Shown one piece after another: positions 1,301-37,415 of a stretch of DNA of 41,712 bases. The DNA is from Acidimicrobiaceae bacterium. Its GTDB lineage: Bacteria > Actinomycetota > Acidimicrobiia > Acidimicrobiales > RAAP-2. The position numbers were made by a program, and so were the translations under genes. The DNA is taken from contig PLRX01000145.1 of the NCBI GenBank assembly GCA_003164095.1, positions 1 to 41,712 on the forward strand. The letters run 5' to 3'. The notes below the pieces were generated by a model. That model saw nothing but the letters and a program-made list of their open reading frames with translations, was not told where the DNA came from and made no database searches. The first letter of the stretch is position 1. Each line of letters begins with the position of its first letter.

Positions 1301-2971
1301 TCAGTCAGTCGGCCCGGCAACGGCGGGTGGTCCGGTCACCGAGCCGAGCCATGTGCGCACCTCGTCGACGAGGGTGCCCCGGCGCCACGTCCGGTGCATC
1401 GGATGGTCGATGTCGGGCACGACCCGGCACGTGACCGCACCCCGGCGCAGAGCGTTCGACCATGTGCGCCCGATCCGGTCCTCGAGGAACTCGAGCCCGT
1501 CGTCGCCCTCGGCGAAGAGCGCCAGCACCGGGGTGCCGGAGGCGTCGATGTCGCGCACCCAGTCGGCGGCCGGGTGGCGGACCCCGATGACGTCGAGCGC
1601 CGACCACACGCCGAGTCGCCGGCCGCGCTTGAAGCGTCGGATCTCCCCGGTGCGACGCACCCGCGTCTCGGTACCGATGTCGGCCTCCACGGGATCGCCG
1701 GGCTGCCAGTAGAGCTGGGGGTTGATGGCGATCACCCCGTCGAGACGGTGGGTCACCGCGGACCTGAGCGCTACCCACGCCCCAGCGCACAGGCCGGCCA
1801 CCAGCACCCGCTCGTGACCCTGTTCCCGAAGGTCGTCCACCACCGAGGCGATCTCGTCGACGCAGTGCGCGTCATACGGCCGGCCGGGGGCATGGCCGAG
1901 GTCCGGGCTCTCGCCCCAGCCCGAGAAGTCCAGCCGGACGGACGTGTAGCCGCTCGGCGCCAGAGCCCGGGCGTAGTCGACCCATGCCCTGCCCGGCCCG
2001 ACGTGGGGCTCCGAACCGGAGTTGCACCACACGACCGTCGCCCGACTCGTCCCTTCGGCGTCGGTCTGGATGCCGACGAGGCGCTCGCGTCCCAGCCGGA
2101 CGACCCGTTCGGTCACCCCATCGATCCGAGCCGTCCCGGCATCGTCCGACGCCTGCTCGACGGTGGTCCGTGCCGGCGTGGACCGGCCCACCCAGTCGCT
2201 GACCGCCTGCACCACCGCGTCAGGCACATCGGAGTACTCCGTCGGCCGGTCGAGAGCGACGTCGGAGCCGGGTGGGGTTCCATGGTCGGTCGCGGCCCCG
2301 AGGGACCGCAGTCGCGCCAGCAGCGCGTCGCTGGCCTGGCGGTCGTCGCGGTCGACGACCAGCACCTGGGGTGCGGGGCGTTCCTCGAGCTTCGTGACGT
2401 CGACGGTCCGCAGCCGTTCGAGGGTATCGGGGCCCAGGACACTGCCGGCGTGTGCGATGCCGCCCCCGACCACGTCGATGTCGTCGGGGACCGGCTGCGA
2501 GAGGAGCTTCAGCTCGCGGACATAGGCCCGCCCGCGCTCCACCGGCGCCCACGCCACGATCCGGTCAGCTCCCACCGAGGCGCCCTCGAGTAGCGCGAGC
2601 GTCGCACCGAAGCGGACACCGGCGACGACCAACGACGACGAGCCGTTGCTGCGCAGGAGCGTCACCGCCTCCCCCACCGACCGCCGCCACGCACCGAGCC
2701 GGTCCGGGTCGGCGGACCCGCCAGAGGAGTCACCGGTCCCCTCGAGGTCGAAGCGGAGCACACTGCACCCCTGCGCCGCCAGGCGCTCGGCCAACGTCCG
2801 CAGGGCGCGGTGCGTCGTCCAGTACTCGTAGCCGAGCGGGGGCACCACGACGACGCCTGTCTCCCCCGGCCCGGACGCCGGCTGGGTCAGCCACCCGAGG
2901 AGCGGACGGTCGGCCGGACCGAACCAGACCGCGCGCTGACGGAGCGAGCGCACCGCAACCGGTGTTGCCAT
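1301..2971 (-). CDS. Tandem two-domain alpha/beta hydrolase with atypical nucleophile elbows
   Basis: 556 residues containing two alpha/beta-hydrolase folds. Domain 1 (about 30-265) has strand-turn features VVVPPLGYEY and LRFDLEGTGDSSG, but its elbow reads GVRFG (118-122), with Arg at the nucleophile site. Domain 2 (about 300-545) has LDFSGWGES, an elbow GLCAG (393-397) with Cys395 where Ser is usual, and a late His in DIDHPMH (about 523). The layout resembles the serine-aminopeptidase-like hydrolases found beside exosortase/exopolysaccharide loci. If domain 2 is active it would use a Cys nucleophile, as dienelactone hydrolases do; domain 1 looks non-catalytic. The ATG at 2971 was chosen because homology starts there; the open frame extends further upstream without family similarity. 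The substrate is unknown. Confidence 0.8.
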   Translation of the reverse strand: MATPVAVRSLRQRAVWFGPADRPLLGWLTQPASGPGETGVVVVPPLGYEYWTTHRALRTLAERLAAQGCSVLRFDLEGTGDSSGGSADPDRLGAWRRSVGEAVTLLRSNGSSSLVVAGVRFGATLALLEGASVGADRIVAWAPVERGRAYVRELKLLSQPVPDDIDVVGGGIAHAGSVLGPDTLERLRTVDVTKLEERPAPQVLVVDRDDRQASDALLARLRSLGAATDHGTPPGSDVALDRPTEYSDVPDAVVQAVSDWVGRSTPARTTVEQASDDAGTARIDGVTERVVRLGRERLVGIQTDAEGTSRATVVWCNSGSEPHVGPGRAWVDYARALAPSGYTSVRLDFSGWGESPDLGHAPGRPYDAHCVDEIASVVDDLREQGHERVLVAGLCAGAWVALRSAVTHRLDGVIAINPQLYWQPGDPVEADIGTETRVRRTGEIRRFKRGRRLGVWSALDVIGVRHPAADWVRDIDASGTPVLALFAEGDDGLEFLEDRIGRTWSNALRRGAVTCRVVPDIDHPMHRTWRRGTLVDEVRTWLGSVTGPPAVAGPTD

Positions 2972-9866: not shown

Positions 9867-9874
9867 CCGGACCG

Positions 9875-9890
9875 CGCCCCACCGGGGGCG
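9875..9890 (+). terminator. Short GC hairpin after enoyl-CoA hydratase-like gene
   Basis: CGCCCC (9875-9880) pairs with GGGGCG (9885-9890) over a 4-base loop, starting 8 bases after the stop codon. There is no T tract, so termination strength is doubtful. Confidence 0.3.
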
Positions 9891-9997
9891 ACTGTCCGAA
9901 TTCCTGCAGCGGTTCGCATCTCCCACGCGTGTAGATGGGTGAGATGTAGGTGCAGGCTCCTCCTGGTGCCTGACCGCGGGGTGGAGAGGAACGGCGT

Positions 9998-20210: not shown

Positions 20211-21722
20211 TCAGGAGGCGCCGCGGCCCTTGAAGATGGTCGCCGGGGTCTGCCAGAGGATCTGCATGTCCCACCAGAACGACCACGACGCGACGTACAG
20301 GTAGTCGAGCCGGCAGAGCTCGAGGTGGGACAGCTCGTTGCGCCCCGATACCTGCCACAGCCCGGTCATGCCCGGCCGGGCCTCGAAGCGCTTGCGCGCC
20401 CAACCCTCGATGCCGGCGGCCTCCTCGACCACGAAGGGGCGCGGGCCGACGAGCGACATGTCGCCCTTCCAGACGTTGATGAGCTGGGGCAGCTCGTCGA
20501 GGCTGGTGCGGCGGAGGAAGTGGCCGACGCGGGTGACCCGGGGGTCGTCGCTCACCTTGAACAGCGGGCCGTCCACCTCGTTGAGGTGCAGGATCTCGGC
20601 CTTGCGCTCCTCGGCGTCCTCGGACATGGTGCGGAACTTGAGCACTGAGAAGGTCCGCTCGTTGCGACCGGTCCTCGCCTGGCGAAAGAAGACCGGGCCC
20701 GGACTGGTGCACGCGATGATGATGGAGACGGCCAGGAAGAAGGGCGAAAGCAGCACCAGGATCACCGACGAGACCACGACGTCGAAGGTGCGCTTGAAGA
20801 AGCGTGAGCTGGCCGACAGCGACGCCGGGGCGATGTCGATCATCGGGAGGCCCGACAGGTCCTCGACGTGGGACCGGCTGGTGATCAGCTCGTAGTAGCG
20901 CGGCACGATGGAGACACCGACCTTGCCCGAGAGCGCCTTGAGCATCTCGGTGGTGCGCTCGGGGTGCGTCCGCGAGAAACAGACGACGACCCGTGCCACG
21001 TCGTGGCGGCGGCACAGCTCGGGCAGGTCCTCGAGCTCGCCCAGGACGTCGCTCCGGCCGAGCGGGCTGTCGTCGACGAAGCCGACGAAGTTGACGCTGG
21101 AGTGCGCCCGCAGGTGGCTGGCCACGGTCTGGGCCAGCTTGCCGGTCCCGACCACGATGACCGGCACCGACCCGGTGGGTGCCCGACCCATGAGGCCGAA
21201 CGAGACGACCCGGGCCAGCGGCACCGCGATGACGGCCACCAGGCACATGGCCAGGATCTTGCCGACGCTCCCGTCCTGGAATTGGTACGCCTGGTGGGCG
21301 ACGTAGCCGACGATGGCGTACAGGAACCCACTGACCAGCAGGGCGTGGACGATATTGCGCAGGTCGCTGAAGACGCTGAGGGAGATCCGGCGGGTCGACC
21401 CCCGGTACAGGCTGTACACGGCGAACACCCCGATGAACACCGGGATCATCGCCAGGTTCAGGAACATGATCGGGCCGAGCCGGTCCGCCGTCGTCTCCGG
21501 GTTGGAGGACACGGCGCTGACGAGCAGCGGGCTCACTACGGCGGCCGTGGCCAGTCCGACGACGTCGGCGATGAGGAGGCGTCGCAGCACGTGACGGCGC
21601 ACGCGGGCGACGGCGCCGGCGTGGTCACCGAGGTCGACGGCCATGCCGTTCCCGGTGGGAACGACGATCGCGTCCAGCCGACGCTCGACGAGCTGCTCCA
21701 CCTCCTCCTCACGAATCGCCAT
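20211..21722 (-). CDS. Initiating polyprenyl-phosphate sugar phosphotransferase (WbaP/CpsE type)
   Basis: 503 residues. Four N-terminal membrane segments (about 46-73, 83-107, 122-143, 155-178) are followed by a Rossmann-like domain (SVPVIVVGTGKLAQTVASHL, 185-204). The C-terminal bacterial sugar transferase domain (310-503) starts KRTFDVVVSSVILVLL. It contains FRQARTGRNERTF, LKFRTM, the catalytic Asp409-Glu410 in TSLDELPQLINVWKGDMSLV, and GMTGLWQVSGRN. It transfers a sugar-1-phosphate to undecaprenyl phosphate and starts repeat-unit assembly. A sigma-A-like promoter with a palindromic site near the predicted start lies upstream. GGAGGAAAGG is unusually far (about 18 bases) from ATG 21722. Confidence 0.93.
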   Translation of the reverse strand: MAIREEEVEQLVERRLDAIVVPTGNGMAVDLGDHAGAVARVRRHVLRRLLIADVVGLATAAVVSPLLVSAVSSNPETTADRLGPIMFLNLAMIPVFIGVFAVYSLYRGSTRRISLSVFSDLRNIVHALLVSGFLYAIVGYVAHQAYQFQDGSVGKILAMCLVAVIAVPLARVVSFGLMGRAPTGSVPVIVVGTGKLAQTVASHLRAHSSVNFVGFVDDSPLGRSDVLGELEDLPELCRRHDVARVVVCFSRTHPERTTEMLKALSGKVGVSIVPRYYELITSRSHVEDLSGLPMIDIAPASLSASSRFFKRTFDVVVSSVILVLLSPFFLAVSIIIACTSPGPVFFRQARTGRNERTFSVLKFRTMSEDAEERKAEILHLNEVDGPLFKVSDDPRVTRVGHFLRRTSLDELPQLINVWKGDMSLVGPRPFVVEEAAGIEGWARKRFEARPGMTGLWQVSGRNELSHLELCRLDYLYVASWSFWWDMQILWQTPATIFKGRGAS

Positions 21723-21902: not shown

Positions 21903-24437
21903 CTACGGCGCCACCGGCGACGTGGCCAGCGAGTTCAGCGCCCGCACCCTGCCGCGTGGCGTCCCCTCGGTTGCCGGCTCCGGACGCAGCACCGTCGAGG
22001 ACGAGCCGCCGGGGGGCAGATGGAACCACGAGTCGTCGGGCGTGAACCCCGGGACGTCGACGTGGACGTACTGGGCGAAGCGTCGCGTCGAAACCGTGAG
22101 GAGCCACACCCCCCCATCGGCCGGTTCGAGCTGCGCCTGAAGCCCCAGGTCAGGATCGAGCCCGCGGGCCGCACCGCCGGGCAGGTACCCGGTGGAGGCG
22201 ACGACGGCACCTGCGGCGTCCCGCAGGTCCACCGTCACCAGCTCGAAGGGCCGGGGACCGAACCGGTAGGCGTACGACAGGTCACGGAAGCCGTCGAACA
22301 GCGCGTCGGCCCGGACGGCCAGTCCGCCCCGCGCCGGCACCGTCACGGGGTGTGCGGCCTCCTCCACCTGGTGGGAGGCGGTGTGGAGGCCGACCACTAC
22401 CGTGCCTTCGACCGGCTCGGCCAGGTCGTTGACGAGGTGCAGGCCGAGCCCGTTGAGCTCCTCGTCGGTGACGAGCACGGCGACAGGGGCGAACCCCCGG
22501 CGGAGGACGAACCACGGCGCCTTGGGCCGGCCCGACGCGTCGACGAGGCCCCAGCCGGCCCCGTGGCGCAGGTCGCGCAGGGCGATGCCCAGCATGCCCG
22601 CGCAGCGCGAGCCGGGGCGCCGCCACTCCGCCACCGCCGCCGACCTGATCTCGGCCACAGCGGCCCGGCCCAGGTCGAGGGCCCGGTCGGGGTCGGTGCG
22701 CCACAGCTCGTCGATGTCTGCCCGGAAGAGGCTCGCCGCGTAGTGGTCCCGGACCGCCTCGAGGTCGTACCAGGACCCGGCATCGCGGTGGACGCCCCGC
22801 TGCCACCCCGACGCGAGGTGCGTGATGAGGTCGCCGCCGAACACCTCGTCCACCGTGGCACGCTCGGGAGGGACCGCGTTGGCCAGCCCTTCGGACACGA
22901 AGCGTGGATCGGACCGCCGCAGGTCCTCCAGCGGCAACCGGCCCATCCCCACGCCGAAGTAGTGGGACACGCCCGAGTCCGCCTGGAAGGGGAAGTCGCC
23001 CCCCGACGGCGACGAGGACAGGTACGGCACGCCCGGGAACCGGTTCGCCACCAGGGCCGGCAGCACGTCATGGATGATCGGCGACCGCCAGCGCTCGCGG
23101 TCGAGGCCGAACATCGCCGGTTGCTCCTCGACCTGCTGGCCACCGCAGACCACGGCCAGGGACGGATGGCGCCCGGCACGGTCCAGCTGGTCGGTGGCCT
23201 CGTCCCGCACGGTGTCGAGGAACTCCTGGTCGTCCGGGGGGTCGACGGGCCCCAGCATGAGGTCCTGCCAGACCAGGATGCCGGTCCGGTCGCAGAGTTC
23301 GAAGAACCGCTCGTCCTCGTAGACCGTCCCGCCGGGTATCCGCAGCATGTTCATGCCGCCCGTCCTGGCGAGGCCGACGGTGTGCTCGAGCTCGGCGTCC
23401 GACGCCTGGTACCCGACCGGGTCGACCGGGTACCAGCACGCCCCCCGGCAGAACACCGGGACACCGTTGACCGACAGCTGGAACCCCTCGTCGGACCGGT
23501 CGACCTCGATCGTCCTGAACCCGACCTCGCCCAGCTCGAGCACGACCCCCTCCACCTCCACGGCGACCGGGTAGAGCGGCTGGTCGCCGTGGGTGTGCGG
23601 CCACCAACGGTCCACGACGTCGAGGAGCAGCTCGCCCGACGCGACGATTCGGCCGTCCTCGCGCCTGACGTCGAGCGGTGCCCGACGGCCGTCGACCACG
23701 AGCTCGGCCGACCGCGGCCCCTCTTCCGACCGGACGCCCGCCCCCGCCAGCTCCACGACGACACGGACGGCGCCGGGCCCGGGGCCGGGGCCGTCAGTGT
23801 GCGAGGGACAGCTCGCCAGCACCTGGCTGGCCACCACCTCGACCGCTCCGGCGGGTCGCAGTGTGAGCGGCCGCCACGGCCCCACCGGGGCCGGCACCTC
23901 CGCCCACCCCGCCTGACGGCCGAGCAGGGTGGTCCTGAACCACCGCAGGTTCTGGCTCGAGAGTCCGGTGTACTTCCAGCGCGGGCGTGGTCGCCTCTGC
24001 TGGAGGACAGGGGTGAGCGCGGCAAACCGGAGCCACAGCTCGTTGTGCCCGCCGACCGCCGCGACCGACACCCGGTGGGTGGCGAACATCGACTCGGACC
24101 GGAGGAGGTGCTCGCCGTTCAGCCAGACGTCGGCCAGGGTGGCGAGGCCACCGGAGCCCAGCACCCATCCGTCCGGAGCCGGGGCCACCGGACCGTCGAA
24201 CCGGCAGCGGAACCACCAGTCCCGGCCGTCGAGGTCGTCGAGGGTGGGCTCGGGCAGCCCGCCGTCGCGCAGTGCCGAGGCGACGGTGCCCGGCACCGTG
24301 GCCGCCGTCCATCCGAGGTCGACCCCGGCCAGGTCGTCGGGCCCGGCCCGCTCGCCCGGCGGTGTGGCGGCGCACTCCCAGGCCGCCCCGGCCAGGAGGT
24401 CGCCGGGCGGCGTCGGTCCGGCGTCGTCACCCGCCAT
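21903..24437 (-). CDS. Glycoside hydrolase family 2-like (beta-mannosidase type), acid/base site altered
   Basis: 844 residues, no signal peptide. It has a sugar-binding N-terminal domain (WWFRCRFDGPV; LATLADVWLNGEHL; HNELWLRFAAL), immunoglobulin-like linker domains, and a TIM barrel (about 325-620) with GMNMLRIPGGTVYEDERFFELCDRTGILVWQDLM. The nucleophile candidate is Glu516 in RFVSEG. Where GH2 beta-mannosidases have a Gly-Asn-Asn-Glu acid/base motif after WCG or VCG, this protein has CGGQQVEEQ (431-439), so the acid/base Glu appears replaced by Gln435. It may be inactive, use Glu437/438, or be a glycan-binding or transglycosylating protein. It overlaps the DUF1839 stop by 11 bases and is the last gene of the leftward operon. 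Confidence 0.82.
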   Translation of the reverse strand: MAGDDAGPTPPGDLLAGAAWECAATPPGERAGPDDLAGVDLGWTAATVPGTVASALRDGGLPEPTLDDLDGRDWWFRCRFDGPVAPAPDGWVLGSGGLATLADVWLNGEHLLRSESMFATHRVSVAAVGGHNELWLRFAALTPVLQQRRPRPRWKYTGLSSQNLRWFRTTLLGRQAGWAEVPAPVGPWRPLTLRPAGAVEVVASQVLASCPSHTDGPGPGPGAVRVVVELAGAGVRSEEGPRSAELVVDGRRAPLDVRREDGRIVASGELLLDVVDRWWPHTHGDQPLYPVAVEVEGVVLELGEVGFRTIEVDRSDEGFQLSVNGVPVFCRGACWYPVDPVGYQASDAELEHTVGLARTGGMNMLRIPGGTVYEDERFFELCDRTGILVWQDLMLGPVDPPDDQEFLDTVRDEATDQLDRAGRHPSLAVVCGGQQVEEQPAMFGLDRERWRSPIIHDVLPALVANRFPGVPYLSSSPSGGDFPFQADSGVSHYFGVGMGRLPLEDLRRSDPRFVSEGLANAVPPERATVDEVFGGDLITHLASGWQRGVHRDAGSWYDLEAVRDHYAASLFRADIDELWRTDPDRALDLGRAAVAEIRSAAVAEWRRPGSRCAGMLGIALRDLRHGAGWGLVDASGRPKAPWFVLRRGFAPVAVLVTDEELNGLGLHLVNDLAEPVEGTVVVGLHTASHQVEEAAHPVTVPARGGLAVRADALFDGFRDLSYAYRFGPRPFELVTVDLRDAAGAVVASTGYLPGGAARGLDPDLGLQAQLEPADGGVWLLTVSTRRFAQYVHVDVPGFTPDDSWFHLPPGGSSSTVLRPEPATEGTPRGRVRALNSLATSPVAP

Positions 24438-25401
24438 ACCGGGCCCCCAGCACGCCCATGGCGTCGTCCCAGTTGGCGGCCATGTCGCCGAGGACGCCGT
24501 CGATGTCGACGGTGCGGCCGCGTGCGACCCGGGCCATGGCGAACTGGAGGCGCTTGGCTCCCTCGGACACCTCGCGCAGGGCGGTGGCGGCCGAGCCGGT
24601 GCCCGGCCCGTCGTGCTCGTTCAACCAGTCGACGAAGGAGGCGGCGAGCTCGGTGCTGGCACCGCACTGGCGGGACAGGCCGAACGAGTAGAGGTGGAAC
24701 ACCTCGAGGTCCTGGGTGGCGAGCCAGGGCAGGTCCTCCCGGAGGCGACCGGCCATCCGGCGCACCGGGTTGTCGGACGGGCGTCGGGCAAGGTGGTCCC
24801 GGGTCAGTGCCAGCACCCGGTCGACCAGGTCGGGGTCGTCGCGCCGGACACGGTCGAGTCGGATCCGCTCCATGTAGGGCGGCAGGGCCGCCGGGTCCTC
24901 GTGGGTGCCCAGACGGAAGAGCCCGTCGAAGTCGTCACCCTCGAGCTCGTAGTAGCCGGCGTTGTGGAAGTAGCCCAGTGCCCGTGCGTCCCGGTCGAGC
25001 CGGCTGGGGACGATGGTGGTCTTGACGTGGTGCGTCCCGTACGAGACCCCTGCGGTGTCCGGCAGGAACAGTGCGTCACCCTCGACGGTGCACAGCCGAC
25101 CCATGGCCAGCTGTTCCTCGACGTGGTCGACGACGGGCCGCCAGACGTTCATCTCGGCGACGTCGATGCCGTAGAGGGACCACAGGTCCTCGGGCGGGAA
25201 CTTGAAGAACGTCCACTGGTCACCCTCGAAGTCACAGCTCAGCGTGAAGGCCGAGGCGGCCACCGGATCGAGGTCCAGGGCGTTGAGCACCTCGATCCAG
25301 ACGTCGACGTAGCAGTTGGTCTCGGTCCAGCTGCGCTCGGAGGCGTGCAGCAGGTGCGGGACGAAGGTCTCCGCCCGCAGCGACAGCGGCGCGACGGTCA
25401 C
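24427..25401 (-). CDS. DUF1839 family protein
   Basis: 324 residues, cytosolic. The N-terminus LSLRAETFVPHLLHASERSW, then ETNCYVDVWIEVLNALDLDP and FEGDQWTFFKFPPEDL, are hallmarks of DUF1839. Further conserved-looking segments are SYGTHHVKTT, GYFHNAGYYELEGDDFDGLF and VFHLYSFGLSRQCGASTEL. The biochemical role is unknown. From memory, DUF1839 genes occur beside amino acid:[carrier protein] ligases in proteobacteria, as here; that should be checked. A role in transferring the carrier-bound aminoacyl group is my inference. GTG start 25401, 49 bases after the ligase gene. Confidence 0.88.
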   Translation of the reverse strand: MTVAPLSLRAETFVPHLLHASERSWTETNCYVDVWIEVLNALDLDPVAASAFTLSCDFEGDQWTFFKFPPEDLWSLYGIDVAEMNVWRPVVDHVEEQLAMGRLCTVEGDALFLPDTAGVSYGTHHVKTTIVPSRLDRDARALGYFHNAGYYELEGDDFDGLFRLGTHEDPAALPPYMERIRLDRVRRDDPDLVDRVLALTRDHLARRPSDNPVRRMAGRLREDLPWLATQDLEVFHLYSFGLSRQCGASTELAASFVDWLNEHDGPGTGSAATALREVSEGAKRLQFAMARVARGRTVDIDGVLGDMAANWDDAMGVLGARYGG

Positions 25402-25450
25402 CGCCGGACCCCGTGCCCGCGCCGCCCCGCCCCGCCCATGACCGTCGGTC

Positions 25451-26386
25451 CTAGGGCCACAGCACGGCCCGCACGTCGGCGGGCCAGCCCTCCGGGTCGG
25501 TGCCGTGGTGGTCGAGCAGAGCGAGGGTGATCCGGTCGACGCCGAAGCCGAAGCAGGCGGTGTGCGCCATCGCCCCGTCCGCCGTGTCGATGCCGAACGG
25601 CCGCGAGAAGTGGTCGAGGTGGCAGTTCGACGACGAGATGGCGGTCGGCCGCCCCTCGGCGAACACCGGCGCCACGATCTCGTACTTCAGCTCCTCGGAG
25701 CGCTGGTTGGCCGCCAGCATCCGGCCGGGCCGGCCGAAGAACGGGTCGTTGGCCACGACCGACTCGACGGTCAGGCCGAGGCCGCCGAGGACCTCGAGGC
25801 CGCGCTCGATCCAGCGGTCGCGGTGGGCCCGGGCCCCTTCGGGCGTACCGAGGTAGACGTAGTCGTGCTGGCGGAACGCCTGCATCCGGAAGGGGTCGGT
25901 GCTCGGCTCGTGCCGGAAGCAGTAGCCGTAGACCTCCACGACCCGGCCGCCCTCGGGCAGCGTGCCCGACTGCGTCGGGTACAGCGGGTGGCACACCGCC
26001 GGGCAGAGCACCATGTCGGTCGACTCGAGCAGCGGAGCGCGGTCCTCGCCCGTCTCGGCGGCGTGCACGAGCTCGGCGTGGCGCCGCTCGTCGCCCCGGA
26101 ACGTGTGGATCGAGCCCATCTGGTCGGGAAACGACTCGAGGTAGCCGTTCTTGACGAAGTTCGACCACGGCATCACCGGTGGGAACCGCACGCTCAGGGC
26201 GTCCTGGTCGGCGCCCACCCGCAGCACCAGCCGGTCGATGGCGTCGGCCACCGACTCGTAGGTGGACGATCGTCCGTAGACGCCGTCGACGTCGGTGGCC
26301 AGCAGCACGCCGTCGTCGAGCAGTGCCGCACGGAAGTCCGCCCACGGCTCGGTGGTGGCGGTCGTGGCATCGAGTACCTCGGCCAT
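25451..26386 (-). CDS. Amino acid:[carrier protein] ligase (class II aaRS-like)
   Basis: 311 residues. It resembles a SerRS-type class II catalytic core without a tRNA-binding arm. Motif 2 is GYCFRHEPSTDPFRMQAFRQ (Arg158, Glu160), and motif 3 is FGFGVDRITLALL (280-292). Cys128/Cys132 (VLCPAVCHPLYP) and Cys255 (SSSNCHLDHF) are candidate ligands of the family's Cys-Glu-Cys zinc site. Characterised Bradyrhizobium homologues activate glycine or alanine with ATP and load it on a phosphopantetheinyl carrier protein. The matching carrier protein and its AcpS lie just upstream. ATG 26386 is preferred; GTG 26395 (overlapping the previous stop as GTGA) is possible. Confidence 0.9.
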   Translation of the reverse strand: MAEVLDATTATTEPWADFRAALLDDGVLLATDVDGVYGRSSTYESVADAIDRLVLRVGADQDALSVRFPPVMPWSNFVKNGYLESFPDQMGSIHTFRGDERRHAELVHAAETGEDRAPLLESTDMVLCPAVCHPLYPTQSGTLPEGGRVVEVYGYCFRHEPSTDPFRMQAFRQHDYVYLGTPEGARAHRDRWIERGLEVLGGLGLTVESVVANDPFFGRPGRMLAANQRSEELKYEIVAPVFAEGRPTAISSSNCHLDHFSRPFGIDTADGAMAHTACFGFGVDRITLALLDHHGTDPEGWPADVRAVLWP

Positions 26387-26391
26387 GGTGC

Positions 26392-27567
26392 TCACTCCCC
26401 CCGCAGGACGAGCAGCATCTGGGCGTTGTTGGCCATGATGCGGTCGTTGTTGACCATGAGGGAGGCGCCCATGGCGTCGCGCAGGTGGCGGCCCAGGCTG
26501 AACGGTGTGTCGAGCCGGTAGGACGCCAGACCGCAGATGAGCATGCACTCGCGGACGATGTCGACGACCAGCGTCGAGGAGGAGACCTTCAGGGCGTTCA
26601 TCCCCACGCCGAAGCCGATGGACGACAGCCGGTCGGCGTCGGTGCCGGCCGCCGCGAAGCGGGCCAGCGACGACTGCACCATGTCGACGAACTGTTGATG
26701 GACCACGGTCACCTCGGCGAGCCGCAAGGCTGCGGGCGGCGTGGTGCCGGGCTTGCGCCGTGCCTCGCGCTGGACGAACCGTCGGGCGAGGTCCACGGCG
26801 TCCGAGGCGATCCCCAGCCACACCGAGGACCACATCAGGTGGGCCATCGGGAGCATGGTGTGCGTCGAGATGTCGGCGTAGGACTCGGGGAACACCTCGT
26901 CGGCGTCGCCGGTGGCCCGCAGGACGAAGCCCGTGCTGCACGTGCCGCGGAACCCCAGGGCGTTCCACTCCCCCACCTGCTCCAGCTCGAGACCGGGCGG
27001 GCGGCACAGGACGATGACCTGATCGCTCTCGGGGCTGTCGGCCGTGCGTCGGGCGGTGACCAGTACGGCGTCGGAGTCGTCGGCGTACGAGATCACGGGT
27101 GCCTGCTTCTCCAGCCGGAAGTGGCCGTCGGTCACCTCGAGGGCGCAGACGCTGGACCGCACATCGCCGCCGGTACCGACCTCGGTGGTGGCCGAGGCCA
27201 GGAGGTACTGGTGCCCGGCGAGCTCCTGGAGGTAGTTCTGCAGTGCCTCGCTGCGGCCGTGGCGGACGAGACAGGCCACCTGGATGTGGTGCATGGCCAC
27301 GACCATTGCGCTCGAGGCGCACCGGCGGCCGAGGGACACCAGGCCCTGCGACACCTCTTCGAGCGAGGCACCGCCCCCGCCGAATTCGACCGGCACCAGT
27401 GCCGCCAGCAGACCCTCGGCCTTCAGCGCCTCGATGGTCTCGGTCGGGAAGCGCGCCCTGTCGTCGACATCGGCGGCGGCCGGACCGGCCACCTCGTCGG
27501 CGATGGCGGTCATGCGGGCGGCCACGTCGCCGGCCCGTGTCATCGGTGCCACGTTGCTCGTGTGCAT
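26392..27567 (-). CDS. Acyl-CoA dehydrogenase-like flavoprotein, probable carrier-protein-linked oxidase
   Basis: 391 residues with the ACAD three-domain plan: N-terminal helices (about 15-120), middle beta domain (LLASATTEVGTGGDV, FRLEKQAPVISYADDSDAVLV, NALGFRGTCSTGF) and C-terminal helices. The region that normally ends in a catalytic YEG-type Glu reads GRHLRDAMGASLMVNND (359-375), so the usual base is missing, as in monooxygenase-type members. It binds FAD by family inference. Position between carrier protein and amino acid:[carrier protein] ligase suggests it acts on the carrier-bound aminoacyl group, analogous in idea to prolyl-carrier-protein dehydrogenases. 7 bases separate it from the carrier-protein gene. 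Confidence 0.85.
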   Translation of the reverse strand: MHTSNVAPMTRAGDVAARMTAIADEVAGPAAADVDDRARFPTETIEALKAEGLLAALVPVEFGGGGASLEEVSQGLVSLGRRCASSAMVVAMHHIQVACLVRHGRSEALQNYLQELAGHQYLLASATTEVGTGGDVRSSVCALEVTDGHFRLEKQAPVISYADDSDAVLVTARRTADSPESDQVIVLCRPPGLELEQVGEWNALGFRGTCSTGFVLRATGDADEVFPESYADISTHTMLPMAHLMWSSVWLGIASDAVDLARRFVQREARRKPGTTPPAALRLAEVTVVHQQFVDMVQSSLARFAAAGTDADRLSSIGFGVGMNALKVSSSTLVVDIVRECMLICGLASYRLDTPFSLGRHLRDAMGASLMVNNDRIMANNAQMLLVLRGE

Positions 27568-27574
27568 CGCTCCG

Positions 27575-27820
27575 TCAACCTCCCGTCAGTTCGAGCACGC
27601 CTGACCGGATGGCCGCGATCGACACGAAGGTGGACTTCTTCAACATCTTCTCGGAGAACTCGAAGTCGAAGGCGTCCTCGAGCGCGAGCATCACGTTGAC
27701 GCTCGCGTGCGACGTCATGCCCGCCCCGAACAGGTCGGTGTCGTCGCTCAGCGAGTCCACCGGCACCGCCAGGCGACCGTGATCCGCCAGCACCTGGCGG
27801 ATCGTCTCGTCTACCGTCAT
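27575..27820 (-). CDS. Free-standing acyl/aminoacyl carrier protein
   Basis: 81 residues, acidic, four-helix carrier fold. DTDLFGAGMTSHASVNVMLA places the phosphopantetheine attachment Ser at residue 37 (M-T-S-H rather than the D-S-L of fatty-acid ACP). The unusual motif fits a dedicated partner of the amino acid:[carrier protein] ligase. ATG 27820 overlaps the AcpS stop (TGATG), so it is translationally coupled to the enzyme that would modify it. Confidence 0.9.
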   Translation of the reverse strand: MTVDETIRQVLADHGRLAVPVDSLSDDTDLFGAGMTSHASVNVMLALEDAFDFEFSEKMLKKSTFVSIAAIRSGVLELTGG

Positions 27821-28254
27821 CAAACTCCCCGTTCTCTCTGTAGGCACCGGCCGACCACGACGGCCCCTGCGACCGTCGACTCGTGCGACAGACTGACCAC
27901 GAGCTCGCCGATACCCGCTTCGGCGGCCAGCTCCGCGGCCTGACCGGACAGGCGGATCTCGCACCATCCTCCTGTCATCCGGTGTATTTCGATACTACGC
28001 CAGTCAGGTTGCAGTTCGACAGGTCGAAGTACCTTGACCACGGCTTCTTTGGCCGCGAAGCGCGCCGCCAGTGACTCGACGGCATACGCGCCACGACCGC
28101 GTGCCGGGCCCTCCGCAGTACGGCACGTCTCGATCTCGTGCGGCGTGAACAGCCGGGTCACGTAGCGGTCGCCGAAGTGGTCGACGGACGCCGCGACCTC
28201 CTCGACGGACACGAGGTCCATCCCGACCCGCAGCGACTCGGTCGGTGCGCTCAC
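27820..28254 (-). CDS. Holo-[acyl-carrier-protein] synthase (AcpS-type phosphopantetheinyl transferase)
   Basis: 144 residues. AcpS motifs: VGMDLVSVEEV (Mg-binding Asp13), FTPHEIETC, SLAARFAAKEAVVKVL (Glu70) and the C-terminal SLSHESTVAGAVVV. It transfers 4'-phosphopantetheine from CoA to the carrier-protein Ser. Its place directly before the carrier-protein gene suggests it is dedicated to that carrier rather than to fatty-acid synthesis; a second housekeeping AcpS should exist elsewhere. GTG 28254 overlaps the upstream glycosyltransferase stop as GTGA. Confidence 0.92.
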   Translation of the reverse strand: MSAPTESLRVGMDLVSVEEVAASVDHFGDRYVTRLFTPHEIETCRTAEGPARGRGAYAVESLAARFAAKEAVVKVLRPVELQPDWRSIEIHRMTGGWCEIRLSGQAAELAAEAGIGELVVSLSHESTVAGAVVVGRCLQRERGV

Positions 28255-29447
28255 GACGCCACCCGCTCGCCGGCAGCCGTCACGCTGCGGTACACGGACC
28301 GGTACGACTCGGCGATGACCGGCCAGGCGAACTCCGCCACCCGGGACCGTCCGGCCGCGGCCACGGACCGGCGGAAGGCGGCGTCGGACAGCAGCCGGCC
28401 GAGTGCGGTCGACATCGCGACCGTGTCGAACGGGTCGACCAGCAGTCCGTCCTCGCCGTCCCGGACGAACTCCGGCGGCCCGCCGTGGTCGGTGGCCAGC
28501 ACGGCGGTGCCGGCACGCCAGCCTTCGAGGACGACGATCCCGAACGGCTCGAGCCGGCTCGGCATGACGAACACGGCGGCGCCCGCCATGGCGGCGGCCA
28601 CCTGTTCGCGCGACAGCCGGCCGACGAAGTGGACGTGGTCGCCGATGCCCGACTCCTCGGCCTGGGCCTCCAGCCGTTCGAGGGCGTTGCCCGTGCCGCC
28701 GATCACCAGGTCGGCGGTGCGGACCCCGGGGTCCATGGCCGCGTAGCCGGCCAGCAGGAGGTCGAATCCCTTCTTGGCGACGACCCGGCCGAGCGCCAGC
28801 ACGTAGGGCACGGCGCCGAGCGGGGCCGGCAGGTCGACGGTCGTGGGATCGGCGCCGGCCGCTGCGTCGTCGTCGGCCGGGGCGACCCCGTTGAAGATCA
28901 CCCGGCCGCCGCATGCCGGCAGCCCGAACCGGGAAACTGCGTCGTCCAGGGTGAACTGCGAGCAGGCCGTGACCGCGGCGGCCGTGCGGAGCCCGGCCCG
29001 CAGAGCGGACCGCAGGACCTGTGAGGTCTCGAAGATGTCGGCGTCGTCCATCAGGGTCTCCCCCTGGAGCGTCACGACGAGGGGGACGCGGCAGAGCCGG
29101 GCGAGTGCGGTGGCATAGGCGCCGTTCGGCCCGAAGCACTGGACGTGCAGGACATCGGGTCGGAAGATGGACACCGCACGACGGAGCGACCGCATCGTGC
29201 GCCAGCCCGTCGTCGTGGCGTGGGAGACGGCCGACAGACTGGTGGCCGGCAGCGGCATGGGGAACCTGCGGACCACGAGGCCGTCCCGCACCTCGACGGT
29301 CTCGGCGGCGCGGTCGTCGGGCAGCCCGGTCCACACCTCGACCTCGTCGCCGGCAGCGACGAGGGCGAGGGCGAGGTGCCGGGTCAGCTCCTCCACGCCA
29401 CCCACCGACGGGGGGTAGGCGCTCGGCAGCAGGGCGATACGCGTCAC
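28251..29447 (-). CDS. GT4-family glycosyltransferase
   Basis: 398 residues, GT-B fold. The N-terminal LPSAYPPSVGGVEELTRHLA is typical of GT4. The donor domain has YVLALGRVVAKKGFDLLL, VIGGTGNALERL and HFVGRLSREQVAAAMAGA, with the EX7E motif EPFGIVVLE. GGAGG about 7 bases before GTG 29447 sets the start. It is translationally coupled (GTGA) to the AcpS-carrier-protein-ligase set, so it probably builds or extends the glycan that this set modifies. Confidence 0.92.
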   Translation of the reverse strand: MTRIALLPSAYPPSVGGVEELTRHLALALVAAGDEVEVWTGLPDDRAAETVEVRDGLVVRRFPMPLPATSLSAVSHATTTGWRTMRSLRRAVSIFRPDVLHVQCFGPNGAYATALARLCRVPLVVTLQGETLMDDADIFETSQVLRSALRAGLRTAAAVTACSQFTLDDAVSRFGLPACGGRVIFNGVAPADDDAAAGADPTTVDLPAPLGAVPYVLALGRVVAKKGFDLLLAGYAAMDPGVRTADLVIGGTGNALERLEAQAEESGIGDHVHFVGRLSREQVAAAMAGAAVFVMPSRLEPFGIVVLEGWRAGTAVLATDHGGPPEFVRDGEDGLLVDPFDTVAMSTALGRLLSDAAFRRSVAAAGRSRVAEFAWPVIAESYRSVYRSVTAAGERVAS

Positions 29448-31751: not shown

Positions 31752-32801
31752 TCAGACGGGCAGTCCCAGTGTGCGGTAGACCTCGGCCGTCCCGCGGGCG
31801 GTGCGCTCCCACGTCAGGGCGCGGACAGCCACCGCACCGCGTGCGGCCAACTCGGCGCGCCCGGCGTCGTCGGCCAGCAGGTCCCCGAGGGTGGCGGCCA
31901 GTCCCTGCACGTCGCCCGGTGTGAAGGTCGCAGCCCCCTCCCCCACCACCTCGGCGACGACCGGCACCGGGGTCGACACCACCGGCGCCCCGCACGCCAT
32001 AGCCTCGACCGGCGGCAGTCCGAACCCCTCGTAGGTCGACGCGTAGCCGACCAGGGTCGCCGCGCCGTAGAGCGCGGGCAGGTCGCCGCCCGGCACGTGG
32101 CCGATCTCGACCACGGAGTCGGGAGCCGACGCGCCCCACAGCCCGTGGCCTGTCAGGACCAGCGGCACACCGACGATCCGGCACGCCTCGGCCAGGGTGC
32201 CGAGGTCTTTGCGCGGCTCGATGTTGCCCACGTGGAGGACGAAGCGGTCCGGCAGTCGGTAGTGGGCCCGGACCCGGTCGATCTCGGCGGACGACGCCGG
32301 CACGAGGGAGGGCCCGGGTGCCTCGTGGACCACCACGGCGTCCCTGCCGCACAGCTCCCGCACCCGGCCGGCCGTGAAGGCCGACACGGCGATGACGGCA
32401 TCGGCCCGACGCAGGGCGGTCCGCATCAGCAGGCGCTCACCCGCCACCCGGTGACGTGGGAACGCCCACGGGACGTCGAAGATGGCGAGGTCGTGGACCG
32501 TGGTGACCTGCAGCCCGGTCCGCCGCAGCGGAAGGTCCACGTCGAGGCCGTGGACCAGGTCGCAGGGGCCGAACCCCCGTGCTCCGGCCAGGGCGCGGCG
32601 CACGCCGTGGGACTCCGCCAGAACGAGTGGCGTCACCCCGTCGGGCAGCTCGCCACGGCCGGTGGGCCGCACGGCTGCCACCAGATCGGCGTCCACCGCC
32701 GGCACGAGGGCCGCCAGCAGCTCGCGGATGTACGTGCTGACGCCCCCGCCACGGAGGTCGAGGGGGAGGGCGTTGAAGGTGATCCTCGGGCGGGTGCTCA
32801 C
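31752..32801 (-). CDS. GT4-family glycosyltransferase (mannosyltransferase-like)
   Basis: 349 residues. The N-terminal GGGVSTYIRELLAAL glycine loop, TVHDLAIFDVPWAFP and VSAFTAGRVREL are typical of the WbdA/WfcD-like GT4 group. The donor domain has FVLHVGNIEPRKDLGTLAEA, with the EX7E motif EGFGLPPVE. GTG 32801 overlaps the polymerase stop (GTGA), so it is translationally coupled to the Wzy-like gene. It adds one sugar of the repeat unit; donor not predictable. Confidence 0.92.
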   Translation of the reverse strand: MSTRPRITFNALPLDLRGGGVSTYIRELLAALVPAVDADLVAAVRPTGRGELPDGVTPLVLAESHGVRRALAGARGFGPCDLVHGLDVDLPLRRTGLQVTTVHDLAIFDVPWAFPRHRVAGERLLMRTALRRADAVIAVSAFTAGRVRELCGRDAVVVHEAPGPSLVPASSAEIDRVRAHYRLPDRFVLHVGNIEPRKDLGTLAEACRIVGVPLVLTGHGLWGASAPDSVVEIGHVPGGDLPALYGAATLVGYASTYEGFGLPPVEAMACGAPVVSTPVPVVAEVVGEGAATFTPGDVQGLAATLGDLLADDAGRAELAARGAVAVRALTWERTARGTAEVYRTLGLPV

Positions 32802-34255
32802 CCGGGGGCCACGGGGGGCCGCGTGACGCCGACCGCCGGTCGGGCGGACGGTCGCACGTCACGCCCGGTGGACGGTCGGACGGGCGGCCGGGGTGACGGT
32901 CTGCGGGTGGACCGATGGGCCGTCCGGTGGCGCCTGGCCGCCGCCTCGGCCAGCAGGTCGGGCACACGTTCCGAGTCGGGGTCGGCGTCGGCCACGCCGA
33001 GGGAGATCCCGGCGATGACGAACGGTGGGATCGACAGGCCGCCGATCCAGAAGGTGTCGAAGAGGCCGTCCACGTAGTGGCCGAGCAGGATCACCAGTCC
33101 GAGCGTGCCGTAGACGCGGGGCAACCCGTTCATGGACCGCATGGTCACGAACACGAGGAACAGGAACGCCAACGACCCGACTATGCCGGTCGAGGCGAGG
33201 TTGTCGACCAGCGAGTTGGGTGGCGGGGTGACGAAGACGTACTGGGGGAGGTTGTAGAAGCGCATCCCGAGCCCGAGCACCGGACTGGTGTGCCAGACGT
33301 GGATCGCCGCGCCGATCTGGCCGAACCGGATGGCCACCGAGTTGAACTGGGGGTTGTTCTGGATCATGACACTGAGGCTGTAGTAGACGAGCGCCAGCGC
33401 CGGGACCCCGATGAAGATCAGCGTCTTGAAGCGACTCTTGATGTCGGAATTGATCAGCACCGCGGCCACCAGTGCCACCACGAGCAGGATGCCGGCCTGG
33501 CGCGACTGCGAGGCCAGGAGGCCCAGCAGGCACAGGACCTCGATGATCCGCGCCTCCACCTTGGCGATCCCGACCCAGGGCGGGTTCAGCTGGGCCACGA
33601 CGGCGGCGACCCACATGACCGAGCCGATGGCGTTCTTCTGGTACGGACCCCACTGGGCCGGATGGAACCCGCTGGCCGCCGAGTGCTCGATGGCCAGCAG
33701 GGCGAGGGCCGCCGCGCCCCACAGGTAGATTCGGTAGGACTGGCGGGCCCGGCCCCGGTAGCCCACGACCCATCCGACCAGGGCGCTGCCGGCCAGGTAG
33801 GAGAAGCGGTGGAACCACTCGATGATGTCGCCCTTGAACGGGTGGGCCACGACCACGAGCAGCAGCACGGCCTGGTACCAGACGATGCCACGCAGGAACC
33901 GCTTCAGGTGGGTTGCCCGGGACCACTCCACGTGGAAGAGGCAGACGAACGCGGCCACGAAGACCAGGAGATCGGCCACACTGAGGTTGGTGCTGGCGCC
34001 GCCCACGCGCTGGATGAGGATGGAGCCTGGCAGGACGATGACGGCCACGAGGATCGGATCGACCACGAAGAGGCCGAAGGCGAGGACCAGACCGGCGACG
34101 ACGATGCCGGCCAGGGGGTTCGCCGCGGTCGCCACCCCGGCCACCGCGGCAAGAGCGAGCATGGTCAGCCACGCCGCGGCCGGTCCGGCCAGTCGCTCCC
34201 ACGCCCGCGCCAGCTTCCGGGCACGCGTGCCCTCCACAGCGGTGCGGGGGCTCAT
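32798..34255 (-). CDS. O-antigen ligase/Wzy-like polysaccharide polymerase
   Basis: 485 residues with about ten to twelve hydrophobic segments starting at residue ~25 (AAWLTMLALAAVAGVATAA). The Wzy_C-type region carries LLASQSRQAGILLVV and, after the large exoplasmic loop, PPNSLVDNLASTGIVG, where the Wzy/WaaL family has a conserved H/N-x-L...GxxG element. The C-terminal 65 residues are Arg/Pro-rich and cytosolic. It polymerises lipid-linked repeat units on the outer face of the membrane. ATG 34255 lacks a Shine-Dalgarno but no better in-frame start precedes the first helix. First gene of the long leftward operon. Confidence 0.88.
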   Translation of the reverse strand: MSPRTAVEGTRARKLARAWERLAGPAAAWLTMLALAAVAGVATAANPLAGIVVAGLVLAFGLFVVDPILVAVIVLPGSILIQRVGGASTNLSVADLLVFVAAFVCLFHVEWSRATHLKRFLRGIVWYQAVLLLVVVAHPFKGDIIEWFHRFSYLAGSALVGWVVGYRGRARQSYRIYLWGAAALALLAIEHSAASGFHPAQWGPYQKNAIGSVMWVAAVVAQLNPPWVGIAKVEARIIEVLCLLGLLASQSRQAGILLVVALVAAVLINSDIKSRFKTLIFIGVPALALVYYSLSVMIQNNPQFNSVAIRFGQIGAAIHVWHTSPVLGLGMRFYNLPQYVFVTPPPNSLVDNLASTGIVGSLAFLFLVFVTMRSMNGLPRVYGTLGLVILLGHYVDGLFDTFWIGGLSIPPFVIAGISLGVADADPDSERVPDLLAEAAARRHRTAHRSTRRPSPRPPVRPSTGRDVRPSARPAVGVTRPPVAPG

Positions 34256-34546
34256 CGGGACGTCGGGGGAACGGTCATGGGCCTCGGGGCGTGTCGGTCG
34301 GGACTCCGTGGACGCCCGATGAATGGTAGCGGTCGCACCACGGCGGTCCGTGGCTCGGCATCGGGTGGCACCTACCCCCATCGGCACCGAACGGCGGCAT
34401 CTCAAGGTCTCTCGTGTTTCTGACGACGCTACGTGTGACCCGGCATGCAGCCCGGGACGGCAGGCCTGCCCCGATCGGGGCACGGCCGAGGACGAGGACG
34501 ACCACGGGTGCCAAGCGCAGTCGACACAGCGAGGGTGAGGACGACG
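34256..34546. other. 291-bp divergent control region between polymerase and rightward GT genes
   Basis: Contains the start regions of the leftward polymerase operon and the rightward GT4-Wzc-GT set. TACCAT (minus strand, just upstream of the leftward gene) is -10-like but has no good -35. No copy of the GTTGCAAC palindrome was found here. I see no gene in it. Confidence 0.4.
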
Positions 34547-35783: not shown

Positions 35784-37415
35784 GTGACATTCCAGCAGAT
35801 GCTCAAGACGTTGTGGCACAGGAAGCTGACGATCATCGTCAGCGTCGTGGTCTGCGTCGCAGTGGCGCTCGGCTACGCCAAACTGTCCACGCCCACCTAC
35901 CAGTCGAGCGCGTTGGTGCAGATCAACGCGCCAAGCCAGAGCACCACGTCCGGGTCGGGGTCGGGCTTCACGGTGTCCGACCCGGTCCAGGAGCTGTCGA
36001 GCTCGGCGGTGCAGACCGCCGCGGCAAAGGCGCTGAAGGACCCGGACCCCTCCGGGCTCGCCGGCCAAGTGAGCGGCACCGTCGACCCGACCTCCGGTGC
36101 CCTGACCGTGACCGGCACGGGGTCGTCCCCGGCCGCGGCAGAGGCCGTCGCCACTGCCTTCGCCCAGGCCTTCGTCGGCGACGTGCAGAACAACGCCAAC
36201 GCACAGATCGACAAGTACACGGTGATCCTCCAGGCGACGAGCAACAAGATCGCCACGCTCCAGAGCCAGCTGGAGTCGTCCAGCAACCCCAACGCCACCT
36301 CGGCCAATGCGCTGCTCACCGCCCAGATCAACGCGCTGACACAGACCTACGGCACGCTGCAGACGGCGCAGTCGACCCTCCAGGCCGGCGGACCGTACGC
36401 GCAGATCCAGGTGGCGGCCCAGCCGGGTGGCCCGACGGGGCTGTCGAAGCCCAAGCTGGGCGCCATCGGCCTGCTGACCGGGCTCCTGGTCGGCTGCGGC
36501 ATCGCCTTCGTCCGCGAGCAGTTCGACGACAGCCTCCGGCTCGACCCCGACATCGAGTCGGTGATCGACGGTCCCCTGCTCGGCGAACTGCCCCAGGACC
36601 CGGAGGTCAAGAAGGGTGAGGTCTCGATCGCACTCGTGCAGACACCCCAGTCGTCGCTGTCCGAGGCCGTGCGCGACCTGCGGACCAGCCTGCGGGTCCT
36701 GCTGGTGGAGCAGCAGAGTCCCATCATCGTGGTGACCAGCCCCGAGCCGGGTGACGGCAAGACGTTCGTGACCGCCAACCTGGCCGCCTCCTGGGCCCTG
36801 ACCGGCGCCCGGGTGATCGTGGTGTCGGCCGACTTCCGGCGCCCGAGGCTGGAGGAGGCCTTCGGGCTCGAGGTCGCCGACCGCCCCGGGCTGTCCGACC
36901 TGATCAAGGCCAACTGGAAGCAGGCCGAGCCCAGCGACGGTCAGACCGACGGCCCGGTGGAGCCGATCGAGGGCGCACGGCCCGGCGGCACCGCACCGCG
37001 CCGGTCGCGCCGTCGGGGTGGCCGCTCGGACTTCGAGGAGACCGCCGTCAGCGCACAGCTCGTCGAGACGGGCATCGACGGCCTGCAGCTCCTGCCGGTG
37101 GGCGTGCACCGGGACAACCCGAGCGAGCTGTTCGACAGCCCCGGCATGCAGCCGGTCCTCGACCAGCTCCACCTGCTGGCCGACATCATCCTCCTGGACA
37201 CCCCGCCGGTGCTGTCCACCCCGGACACCGCCATCCTCGGCAGCCTCACCCACGGTGCGATCATCGTGGCCACCGAGGGCAAGACCGACCGGTCCGACCT
37301 CGAGCGGACGGCCCATCGGCTCGAGTCAACCGGGTGCCGTGTCGTCGGCCTGGTCATGAACCACGTGCGGCGCAGCGCGTCCGACGGTTACCAGGCCTAC
37401 AGCTACACCAAGTGA
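35784..37415 (+). CDS. Wzc-like chain-length determinant fused to BY-kinase domain
   Basis: 543 residues. The Wzz-type N-terminus has membrane helix 1 (about 14-31), exoplasmic helical region (40-220; NKIATLQSQLES) and membrane helix 2 (about 224-243). The cytosolic ATPase has Walker A SPEPGDGKT (319-327), Walker A' VSADFRRP (347-354) and Walker B IILLDTPP (468-475). There is a basic insertion (about 378-418, PRRSRRRGGR) between A' and B. Tyr536, Tyr539 and Tyr541 at the extreme C-terminus are candidate autophosphorylation sites. It controls chain length and polymerisation; the tyrosine phosphatase at 17988-18533 is a plausible antagonist. GTG start; the stop overlaps the next ATG (TGATG). 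Confidence 0.93.
   Translation: MTFQQMLKTLWHRKLTIIVSVVVCVAVALGYAKLSTPTYQSSALVQINAPSQSTTSGSGSGFTVSDPVQELSSSAVQTAAAKALKDPDPSGLAGQVSGTVDPTSGALTVTGTGSSPAAAEAVATAFAQAFVGDVQNNANAQIDKYTVILQATSNKIATLQSQLESSSNPNATSANALLTAQINALTQTYGTLQTAQSTLQAGGPYAQIQVAAQPGGPTGLSKPKLGAIGLLTGLLVGCGIAFVREQFDDSLRLDPDIESVIDGPLLGELPQDPEVKKGEVSIALVQTPQSSLSEAVRDLRTSLRVLLVEQQSPIIVVTSPEPGDGKTFVTANLAASWALTGARVIVVSADFRRPRLEEAFGLEVADRPGLSDLIKANWKQAEPSDGQTDGPVEPIEGARPGGTAPRRSRRRGGRSDFEETAVSAQLVETGIDGLQLLPVGVHRDNPSELFDSPGMQPVLDQLHLLADIILLDTPPVLSTPDTAILGSLTHGAIIVATEGKTDRSDLERTAHRLESTGCRVVGLVMNHVRRSASDGYQAYSYTK

Follow-up and report, generated by a model that had tools for sequence, protein, structure and literature searches.

A conserved carrier-protein cassette with a predicted DUF1839 aminoacyl amide synthase in a putative exopolysaccharide locus of an Acidimicrobiaceae bacterium

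What becomes of an amino acid that a paralogue of an aminoacyl-tRNA synthetase (aaRS) loads onto a carrier protein? According to the accessible sections of a 2022 review (PMC9437257), the role of such charging is still unknown, and the question has stood open since 2010. It is raised by a contig of an Acidimicrobiaceae bacterium (PLRX01000145.1, assembly GCA_003164095.1), whose 41,712 nucleotides we call the window; this is the entire contig (C105), from a genome of 3.7 Mb and 95.5% completeness. An earlier note on the window had claimed a run of seven minus-strand genes, and all are present, with spacing and families as described: a glycosyltransferase of family 4 (GT4), AcpS, a stand-alone carrier protein, a flavoprotein resembling acyl-CoA dehydrogenases (ACAD), a class II aaRS-like amino acid:[carrier protein] ligase, DUF1839 and a protein resembling glycoside hydrolase family 2 (GH2). 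The coupling of GT4 to AcpS by GTGA, also described there, is seen as an overlap of 4 bases (gap −4), and the gaps that follow are −1 (AcpS/carrier protein), 7 (carrier protein/ACAD-like), −4 (ACAD-like/ligase), 49 (ligase/DUF1839) and −11 bases (DUF1839/GH2-like). The explanation that we consider best overall, and to which we give an even chance, is a cytosolic aminoacyl-thioester pathway with DUF1839 as its predicted transferase and, in this clade, an amino sugar of an exopolysaccharide as acceptor.

The set is not a chance assembly, because it recurs in other genomes. In a scan of one genome per species, 80 of 91 confirmed DUF1839 loci were used, with up to 10 kb on each side, and the loci of the window's own genome (L001-L004) were removed from the 80-locus counts. 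The ligase was present in 75 loci, the ACAD-like flavoprotein in 74, the GH2-like protein in 72, the carrier protein in 71 and AcpS in 31, some absences being due to contig ends. Carrier protein, ACAD-like flavoprotein, ligase, DUF1839 and GH2-like protein are a conserved cassette, found by record titles in Actinobacteria, Proteobacteria, Myxococcales, Gemmatimonadetes, Verrucomicrobia, Planctomycetes and Acidobacteria. Pairwise divergences of these five core proteins correlate (r 0.67-0.91, above all 200 permutations), to which shared species history contributes. The spread is patchy: of 198 genomes in the window's class, 3 gave the cassette, and these include the genome of the window itself, which has a single DUF1839. 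Alignments covered 69 of the 80 loci plus the window (A1), 30 of 47 (A2), 46 of 72 plus the window (A3) and 46 of 74 plus the window (A4).

From its predicted structure, the DUF1839 protein (24427..25401, minus strand; PF08893 391 bits, cut-off 22.5) would be a carrier-protein-dependent aminoacyl amide synthase. The AlphaFold2 (AF2) model had a predicted local distance difference test score (pLDDT) of 96.9 and a predicted template modelling score (pTM) of 0.93. Foldseek against PDB returned 19 matches with E <= 0.001, every chain from AziU3/U2 (presumably of the azinomycin pathway), CtaG or CcbD entries, and VIA-align ranked CcbD at Z 20.3 (root-mean-square deviation 3.4, 289 residues), AziU3/U2 at Z 19.0 and CtaG at Z 17.1, with the next row at Z 8.1. 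In the available text of PMC12945683, CcbD and LmbD use a Cys-His-Glu ping-pong mechanism to couple a proline-type amino acid, bound to a carrier, to a thiooctose through the amino group of the sugar, with an amide as product. Because its predicted fold matches that of CcbD, an enzyme that links an amino acid on a carrier to an amino sugar, DUF1839 is the best candidate transferase. The genetic context fits a condensing enzyme, with a carrier protein and a charging enzyme adjoining DUF1839 in the window and in most loci. A role of DUF1839 as transferase, one of two options put forward in the earlier note, is thus supported by the confidence of the model and by the structural matches, and on this evidence DUF1839 probably transfers the aminoacyl group to an amine. 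Among the matches listed in searches of open-access literature, we found no paper connecting DUF1839 with CcbD, CtaG or lincosamides.

All 70 aligned DUF1839 sequences have Cys30, His146 and Asp157; position 129 is occupied by Thr in 68 of them and by Ser in the other 2. The Cys-His spacing is 116 residues, compared with 117 in CtaG (from variant names) and 112 in CcbD. Some points tell against the assignment. A search of PDB with the DUF1839 sequence revealed no likeness to CcbD or CtaG (no chain at E <= 1; at E <= 10 three chains, all unrelated); and the accessible part of PMC10318531 (JBC 2023) classes DUF1839 as papain-like with a triad C-(T/S)-H, which differs from Cys-His-Asp. The invariance of Cys30, His146 and Asp157 and the restriction of residue 129 to Thr or Ser make both triad readings compatible with the alignment. 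For LmbD and CcbD themselves, no sequence relatives were found according to the available sections of PMC4351081 (2015). The same JBC paper uses gene neighbourhoods, in its accessible part, to suggest that DUF1839 processes glycans at the cell wall, and together with the papain-like class this would favour a DUF1839 that is a hydrolase, or a protease processing glycans or peptides, and not an amide synthase. The full-length structural match is, however, to carrier-dependent condensing enzymes, and papain-like hydrolases scored far lower in VIA-align, over partial lengths (C39-like domain Z 6.7, endoisopeptidase PeiR Z 6.5); moreover, DUF1839 lacks a signal peptide by hydropathy, and a carrier protein accompanies it in most loci. 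We therefore consider a hydrolase or protease very improbable.

The ligase (25451..26395, minus strand; NF005479 408.1 bits, cut-off 357) is 42% identical over 289 residues (E 2.5e-71) to the Bll0957-type chain 4h2w of PDB, and shares with it, at three aligned positions, Cys, Glu and Cys residues that we take to be the zinc ligands. The identity and the family score support its assignment in the earlier note as the probable charging enzyme. Its likely partner, the stand-alone carrier protein (27575..27820, minus strand; NF005480 94.9 bits, cut-off 72), has its phosphopantetheine site at Ser37 (codon 27712-27710), as had been claimed: this residue is Ser in all 72 distinct sequences of an alignment of 73 rows, in which L003 repeats the window. 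The AcpS-type phosphopantetheinyl transferase (27820..28254, minus strand; PF01648 48.4, cut-off 25; TIGR00556 above cut-off) is one of three PF01648 matches in the window genome. It had been called dedicated to the module; it is indeed present in the window, but its occurrence in only 31 of the 80 loci does not bear this out for the family. At locus L105, whose ligase shares 93% identity with the Bll0957-type chain, an ACAD and a carrier-protein match are nearby, but no DUF1839 was seen in the 19 kb read there (within ~9 kb of the ligase). Bll0957 is for this reason not a direct model for the cassette. A search for a distant DUF1839 in the open reading frames (ORFs) beside the ligases of L105, L107 and L108 found none, the L107 ORF tested being probably not a gene. 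At L105:7117-10913, the ACAD and the ligase stand with an ORF of ~300 residues that is GNAT-like by eye and has no Pfam or NCBIfam match.

For the flavoprotein of the ACAD superfamily (26392..27567, minus strand; PF02771 52.1, cut-off 22.9; PF00441 above cut-off), the family profile was run against PDB. It scored 94.9 bits with a short-chain ACAD, 89.7 with butyryl-CoA dehydrogenase, 87.3 with DnmZ, and 86.4 and 86.2 with two entries titled FAD-dependent oxidoreductase, presumably KijD3; by profile score the family falls between dehydrogenases (94.9, 89.7) and the sugar nitrososynthases of the class D flavin monooxygenases (87). A Glu near the C terminus is the catalytic residue of acyl-CoA dehydrogenases; in the window protein Val372 aligns opposite the Glu of 8i4p, and residues other than Glu stand in these columns of the family. 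The lack of this base argues against an ordinary dehydrogenase. That the flavoprotein oxidises the aminoacyl group is in our judgement somewhat favoured.

The GH2-like protein (21903..24437, minus strand; PF22666 59.5, cut-off 27) is of beta-mannosidase type, its family profile matching the beta-mannosidase 5n6u over nearly the whole length (E 1.4e-117). The nucleophile Glu516 is kept in the window and is Glu in 46/47 sequences; at the acid/base position the window has Gln435 and the family Glu in 42/47, Gln in 3 and Asp in 2, the Acidimicrobia relatives L005 and L011 keeping the Glu. Given this alignment with GH2 beta-mannosidases and a family that mostly keeps both catalytic Glu, we hold it unlikely that the protein is the transferase or an adaptor, as the earlier note had proposed alongside DUF1839.

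A sixth cassette gene, absent from that note, encodes a tandem alpha/beta-hydrolase, present in 47 of the 80 loci and mostly directly after the GH2-like gene. In the window (1301..2971, minus strand, with the start set at the Met at 2971; 426 bits with a profile of the hydrolase from DUF1839 loci) it lies on the strand of the cassette. Its second domain has Cys at the nucleophile elbow (GLCAGA). In the alignment, this Cys and a His of the second domain are invariant (30/30 each), and Arg occupies the nucleophile place of the first domain in 28/30. All 30 members matched TIGR03101 and 29 matched TIGR03100 (exosortase-A-associated hydrolases 2 and 1) at E <= 0.001, and the sequence resembles a fusion of the two; scores were under the curated cut-offs for the window protein (TIGR03101 82.6, TIGR03100 70.7 bits) and for that of L043 (TIGR03100 135.7, cut-off 168.45; TIGR03101 119.1, cut-off 202.75). 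A hydrolase with invariant Cys and His, encoded in the window too, could itself be the acyltransferase and leave DUF1839 another step. However, it occurs in just 47 of the 80 DUF1839 loci, and none was seen when 25 kb surrounding DUF1839 were read in Rhizobium and Shinella records, which makes such a division of labour highly improbable.

The region of the window is read as an exopolysaccharide locus. The gene for an undecaprenyl-phosphate sugar-1-phosphate transferase (PHPT), which starts the repeat unit (20211..21722, minus strand; PF02397 221.6 bits; TIGR03025 377.9, cut-off 295.55), begins 180 bases downstream of the seven-gene set, and the hydrolase gene lies ~17 kb beyond it. On the other side are the GT4 gene that overlaps AcpS (28251..29447, minus strand; PF00534 122 bits), a second GT4 gene of the same run (31752..32801, minus strand; PF00534 74.2 bits) and a Wzy_C-type polymerase or O-antigen ligase (32798..34483, minus strand; PF04932 35.7, cut-off 31.7; 82 hydrophobic windows). 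The set had been placed downstream of Wzy; it does share its strand, but a GT4 gene and two ORFs intervene, with gaps of <=111 bases. A Wzz/tyrosine autokinase chain-length regulator follows on the plus strand (35784..37415; PF02706 48.2, cut-off 25.5; TIGR01007 110.3, cut-off 108.05), with additional glycosyltransferases farther right. The exopolysaccharide setting claimed for the window holds in its clade: PHPT lies downstream of the cassette in seven of the ten Acidimicrobia loci (L005-L011 of L005-L014), and in six of these seven a GT4 ORF begins <=1.3 kb upstream of the AcpS ORF, L006 being cut off. L012 and L014 have <4 kb of sequence on the PHPT side. At L128, a further locus from this class, the 15 kb read contain both PHPT and GT4.

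Genome-wide tests covered 32 of the 80 loci and the window genome. Outside Acidimicrobia, 12/29 genomes have GT4 within ~10 kb, where genome-wide counts predict 2.0; for PHPT within 15 kb the figures are 4/29 observed and 0.45 expected (simulated P 0.001; distances read by eye from lists). Among 278 non-core flanking genes of 130-900 aa from 28 of the 80 loci (NCBIfam scan of the first 150), GT4 families topped the Pfam tallies, with 8/150 and 7/128. On a Shinella plasmid, genes for O-antigen ligase and GumC stand 6-8 kb upstream of the cassette, and in both Azospirillum records glycosidases are annotated 6-9 kb upstream.

Several observations weigh against the explanation that we consider best. 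Within the window's class, L013 has no PHPT within 10 kb, L127 has neither GT4 nor PHPT in 20 kb, and L007 and L009 have cassette and PHPT and no GH2-like gene, with nearly 10 kb available on that side. No GT4 was found within ~10 kb in 17/32 tested loci; the GT enrichment compares observations made with our own profile with expectations from Pfam counts, in genomes that are not independent; and a Pfam scan of 30 window ORFs revealed no amino-sugar aminotransferase. Plasmids of Rhizobium, of two Azospirillum species and of Phyllobacterium carry compact carrier protein-ACAD-ligase-DUF1839-GH2(-alpha/beta-hydrolase) operons, and the incomplete gene tables of these plasmids list no glycan-assembly genes within 12 kb; GT4, PHPT and Wzy profiles detected nothing on these stretches, and the sole Wzz match, in Phyllobacterium, was repA. 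The product therefore need not be a polysaccharide. The earlier note would have counted homologous modules without nearby glycan genes as refuting its hypothesis; the neighbourhood survey found such modules in several lineages, and a cassette confined to polysaccharide loci is rejected on account of the plasmid operons and the 17/32 loci without GT4.

The same chemistry could instead yield a soluble aminoacyl-amine or aminoacyl-amino sugar, mini-lincosamide-like or mycothiol-like, with the exopolysaccharide placement specific to this clade. The bare plasmid operons, the patchy spread and the fact that the nearest folds to DUF1839 are those of antibiotic enzymes all agree with such a product; the enrichment of GT4 and PHPT near the cassette, its embedding between GT4 and PHPT in this clade and the tandem hydrolase of 47 of the 80 loci, related as it is to polysaccharide hydrolases of exosortase-A systems, argue against it. 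On balance we regard a soluble product as a real possibility that falls somewhat short of probable. An amino sugar of the polysaccharide as acceptor in this clade we consider evenly poised between right and wrong.

With such an acceptor, the proposed pathway would run as follows. AcpS would convert the carrier protein to its holo form, as expected from its family. The ligase would adenylate a small amino acid, probably glycine or alanine, and load it onto the phosphopantetheine, as is in print for homologues. The ACAD-like flavoprotein might then oxidise the carrier-bound aminoacyl group, the weakest of the steps. DUF1839 would accept the acyl group on Cys30 and pass it to an amine, producing an amide in the manner of CcbD, as its fold and invariant residues suggest. 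The acceptor in this clade would most likely be an amino sugar in the repeat unit of the exopolysaccharide, either already on undecaprenyl phosphate or not yet attached to it. With low confidence, the GH2-like protein and the tandem hydrolase may prepare or proofread the glycoside and the thioester. Since hydropathy revealed no signal peptide or transmembrane segment in any of the seven proteins, the chemistry is probably cytosolic. In its general form, which we offer tentatively and as more doubtful than probable, the proposal is of a phylum-crossing, sometimes plasmid-borne system that brings lincosamide-synthetase chemistry to surface sugars: the ligase charges, the flavoprotein oxidises the aminoacyl group on its carrier (at nitrogen, for instance, or to an imine), and a synthase of CcbD fold makes the amide on an amino sugar.

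The predicted CcbD fold of DUF1839 names both an enzyme to assay and the type of acceptor to offer, and the cassette is small enough for reconstitution in vitro. Should the acceptor prove to be an amino sugar of a polysaccharide, these would be the genes for one class of surface modification; should it be a soluble amine, they would be those for a widespread unknown metabolite.

Charging enzyme and DUF1839 do not always occur together. The ligase is lacking in five of the 80 DUF1839 loci, L062, which is cut off, and L016, L028, L044 and L072, so that DUF1839 always with ligase is rejected. A search for an aaRS-like ligase in the assemblies of the last four, which as drafts may be incomplete, found none; the same search was positive in 8/8 control genomes, which were picked as ligase-bearing and show only that it works. 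In L044 a stand-alone amino-acid adenylation domain lies ~7 kb from DUF1839 (TIGR01733 350 bits, cut-off 317.4); L028 has, within 10 kb, an ANL ligase that scores under cut-offs; among the genes read at L016 and L072 no ANL-type activating enzyme was noticed. Conversely, NF005479 matched in 19 of 385 alphaproteobacterial genomes, in 10 above the cut-off, and these ten ligases stood with DUF1839 in five cases and without it, in the stretches read, in the other five, which rejects ligase always with DUF1839; one of the former (G020) was the search centre, found through DUF1839, and without it the count is 4/9. Given DUF1839 loci without ligase and ligases without DUF1839, the charging and transfer steps seem to be swapped separately, although the cases are few.

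Further ligases were observed in other settings. Divergent ligases resembling seryl-tRNA synthetase (SerRS), under the NF005479 cut-off, adjoin MBOAT genes at L110:7544-10312 and L112:7445-10577, which recalls a Dlt-like arrangement in which a different enzyme does the charging. In Steroidobacter, ANL ligases lie ~1 and ~3 kb from DUF1839 at G018:C1:456840-458363 (L050) and G027:C3:62311-63777 (a second DUF1839 copy, in the genome of L069); they resemble the TIGR03098 exosortase-A acyl-CoA ligase at 470 and 364 bits, below the cut-off of 592, a profile too general for genome scans (34/34 genomes match, 2 above cut-off). Caballeronia terrestris (G031) has three DUF1839 copies (C14, C45, C8), one of them ~2.5 kb from a PHPT gene.

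In the window itself, the two ORFs at 29565-30737 and 30750-31667 are without family and have strongly hydrophobic stretches, and relatives of the first are found near the cassette in the Acidimicrobia loci L007-L011. The ORF at 8064-9926 has a D-2-hydroxyacid dehydrogenase domain (312-607) after ~300 residues without family, which may be a start-codon artefact.

A similar neighbourhood has been predicted before. The accessible portion of PMC2922099 (Biol Direct 2010;5:48, note in proof) describes a SerRS paralogue, an acyl carrier protein, a redox enzyme, Atu2574 and a glycosidase, and predicts that Atu2574 ligates an amino acid to the amino group of a cell-surface sugar and that the redox enzyme modifies the aminoacyl group. 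All five kinds of component are in the window, if DUF1839 is taken as the counterpart of Atu2574. The hypothesis of the earlier note is hence not new in outline, its general idea having been printed in 2010. That portion of the 2010 text names no fold for the ORF, no alpha/beta-hydrolase, no AcpS and no stand-alone operons; what is new here is the structural assignment of DUF1839, the sixth gene, the ligase-less variants and the stand-alone operons.

Among characterised systems, CcbD/LmbD of the lincosamide pathways have the fold of the DUF1839 model, and their carrier-bound amino acid donor, catalytic Cys and His and amino-sugar acceptor are what is predicted for DUF1839; they differ in that no sequence similarity to it was found, in a donor charged by an adenylation domain, not by an aaRS-like ligase, and in a soluble antibiotic as product. 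CtaG (closthioamide), which the available text of PMC6772006 proposes as a peptidyl transferase between carrier proteins, and AziU3/U2, known to us by PDB titles only, have the same fold (Z 17 and 19) with other donors and acceptors. Bll0957 of Bradyrhizobium resembles the window ligase in sequence and in its presumed zinc site, but its closest relative here, at L105, is without DUF1839. The accessory genes of XrtA/PEP-CTERM exopolysaccharide systems resemble the tandem hydrolase, at scores below cut-offs, whereas the charging enzyme here is aaRS-like. In Dlt D-alanylation, too, a carrier protein is loaded with an amino acid destined for a surface polymer, but DltA is an ANL enzyme and transfer proceeds through an MBOAT protein, for which the 30 window ORFs scanned gave no match. 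If the proposed pathway is true, the cassette would represent a soluble thioester route to N-aminoacylated polysaccharide, distinct from both the tRNA-dependent and the Dlt routes.

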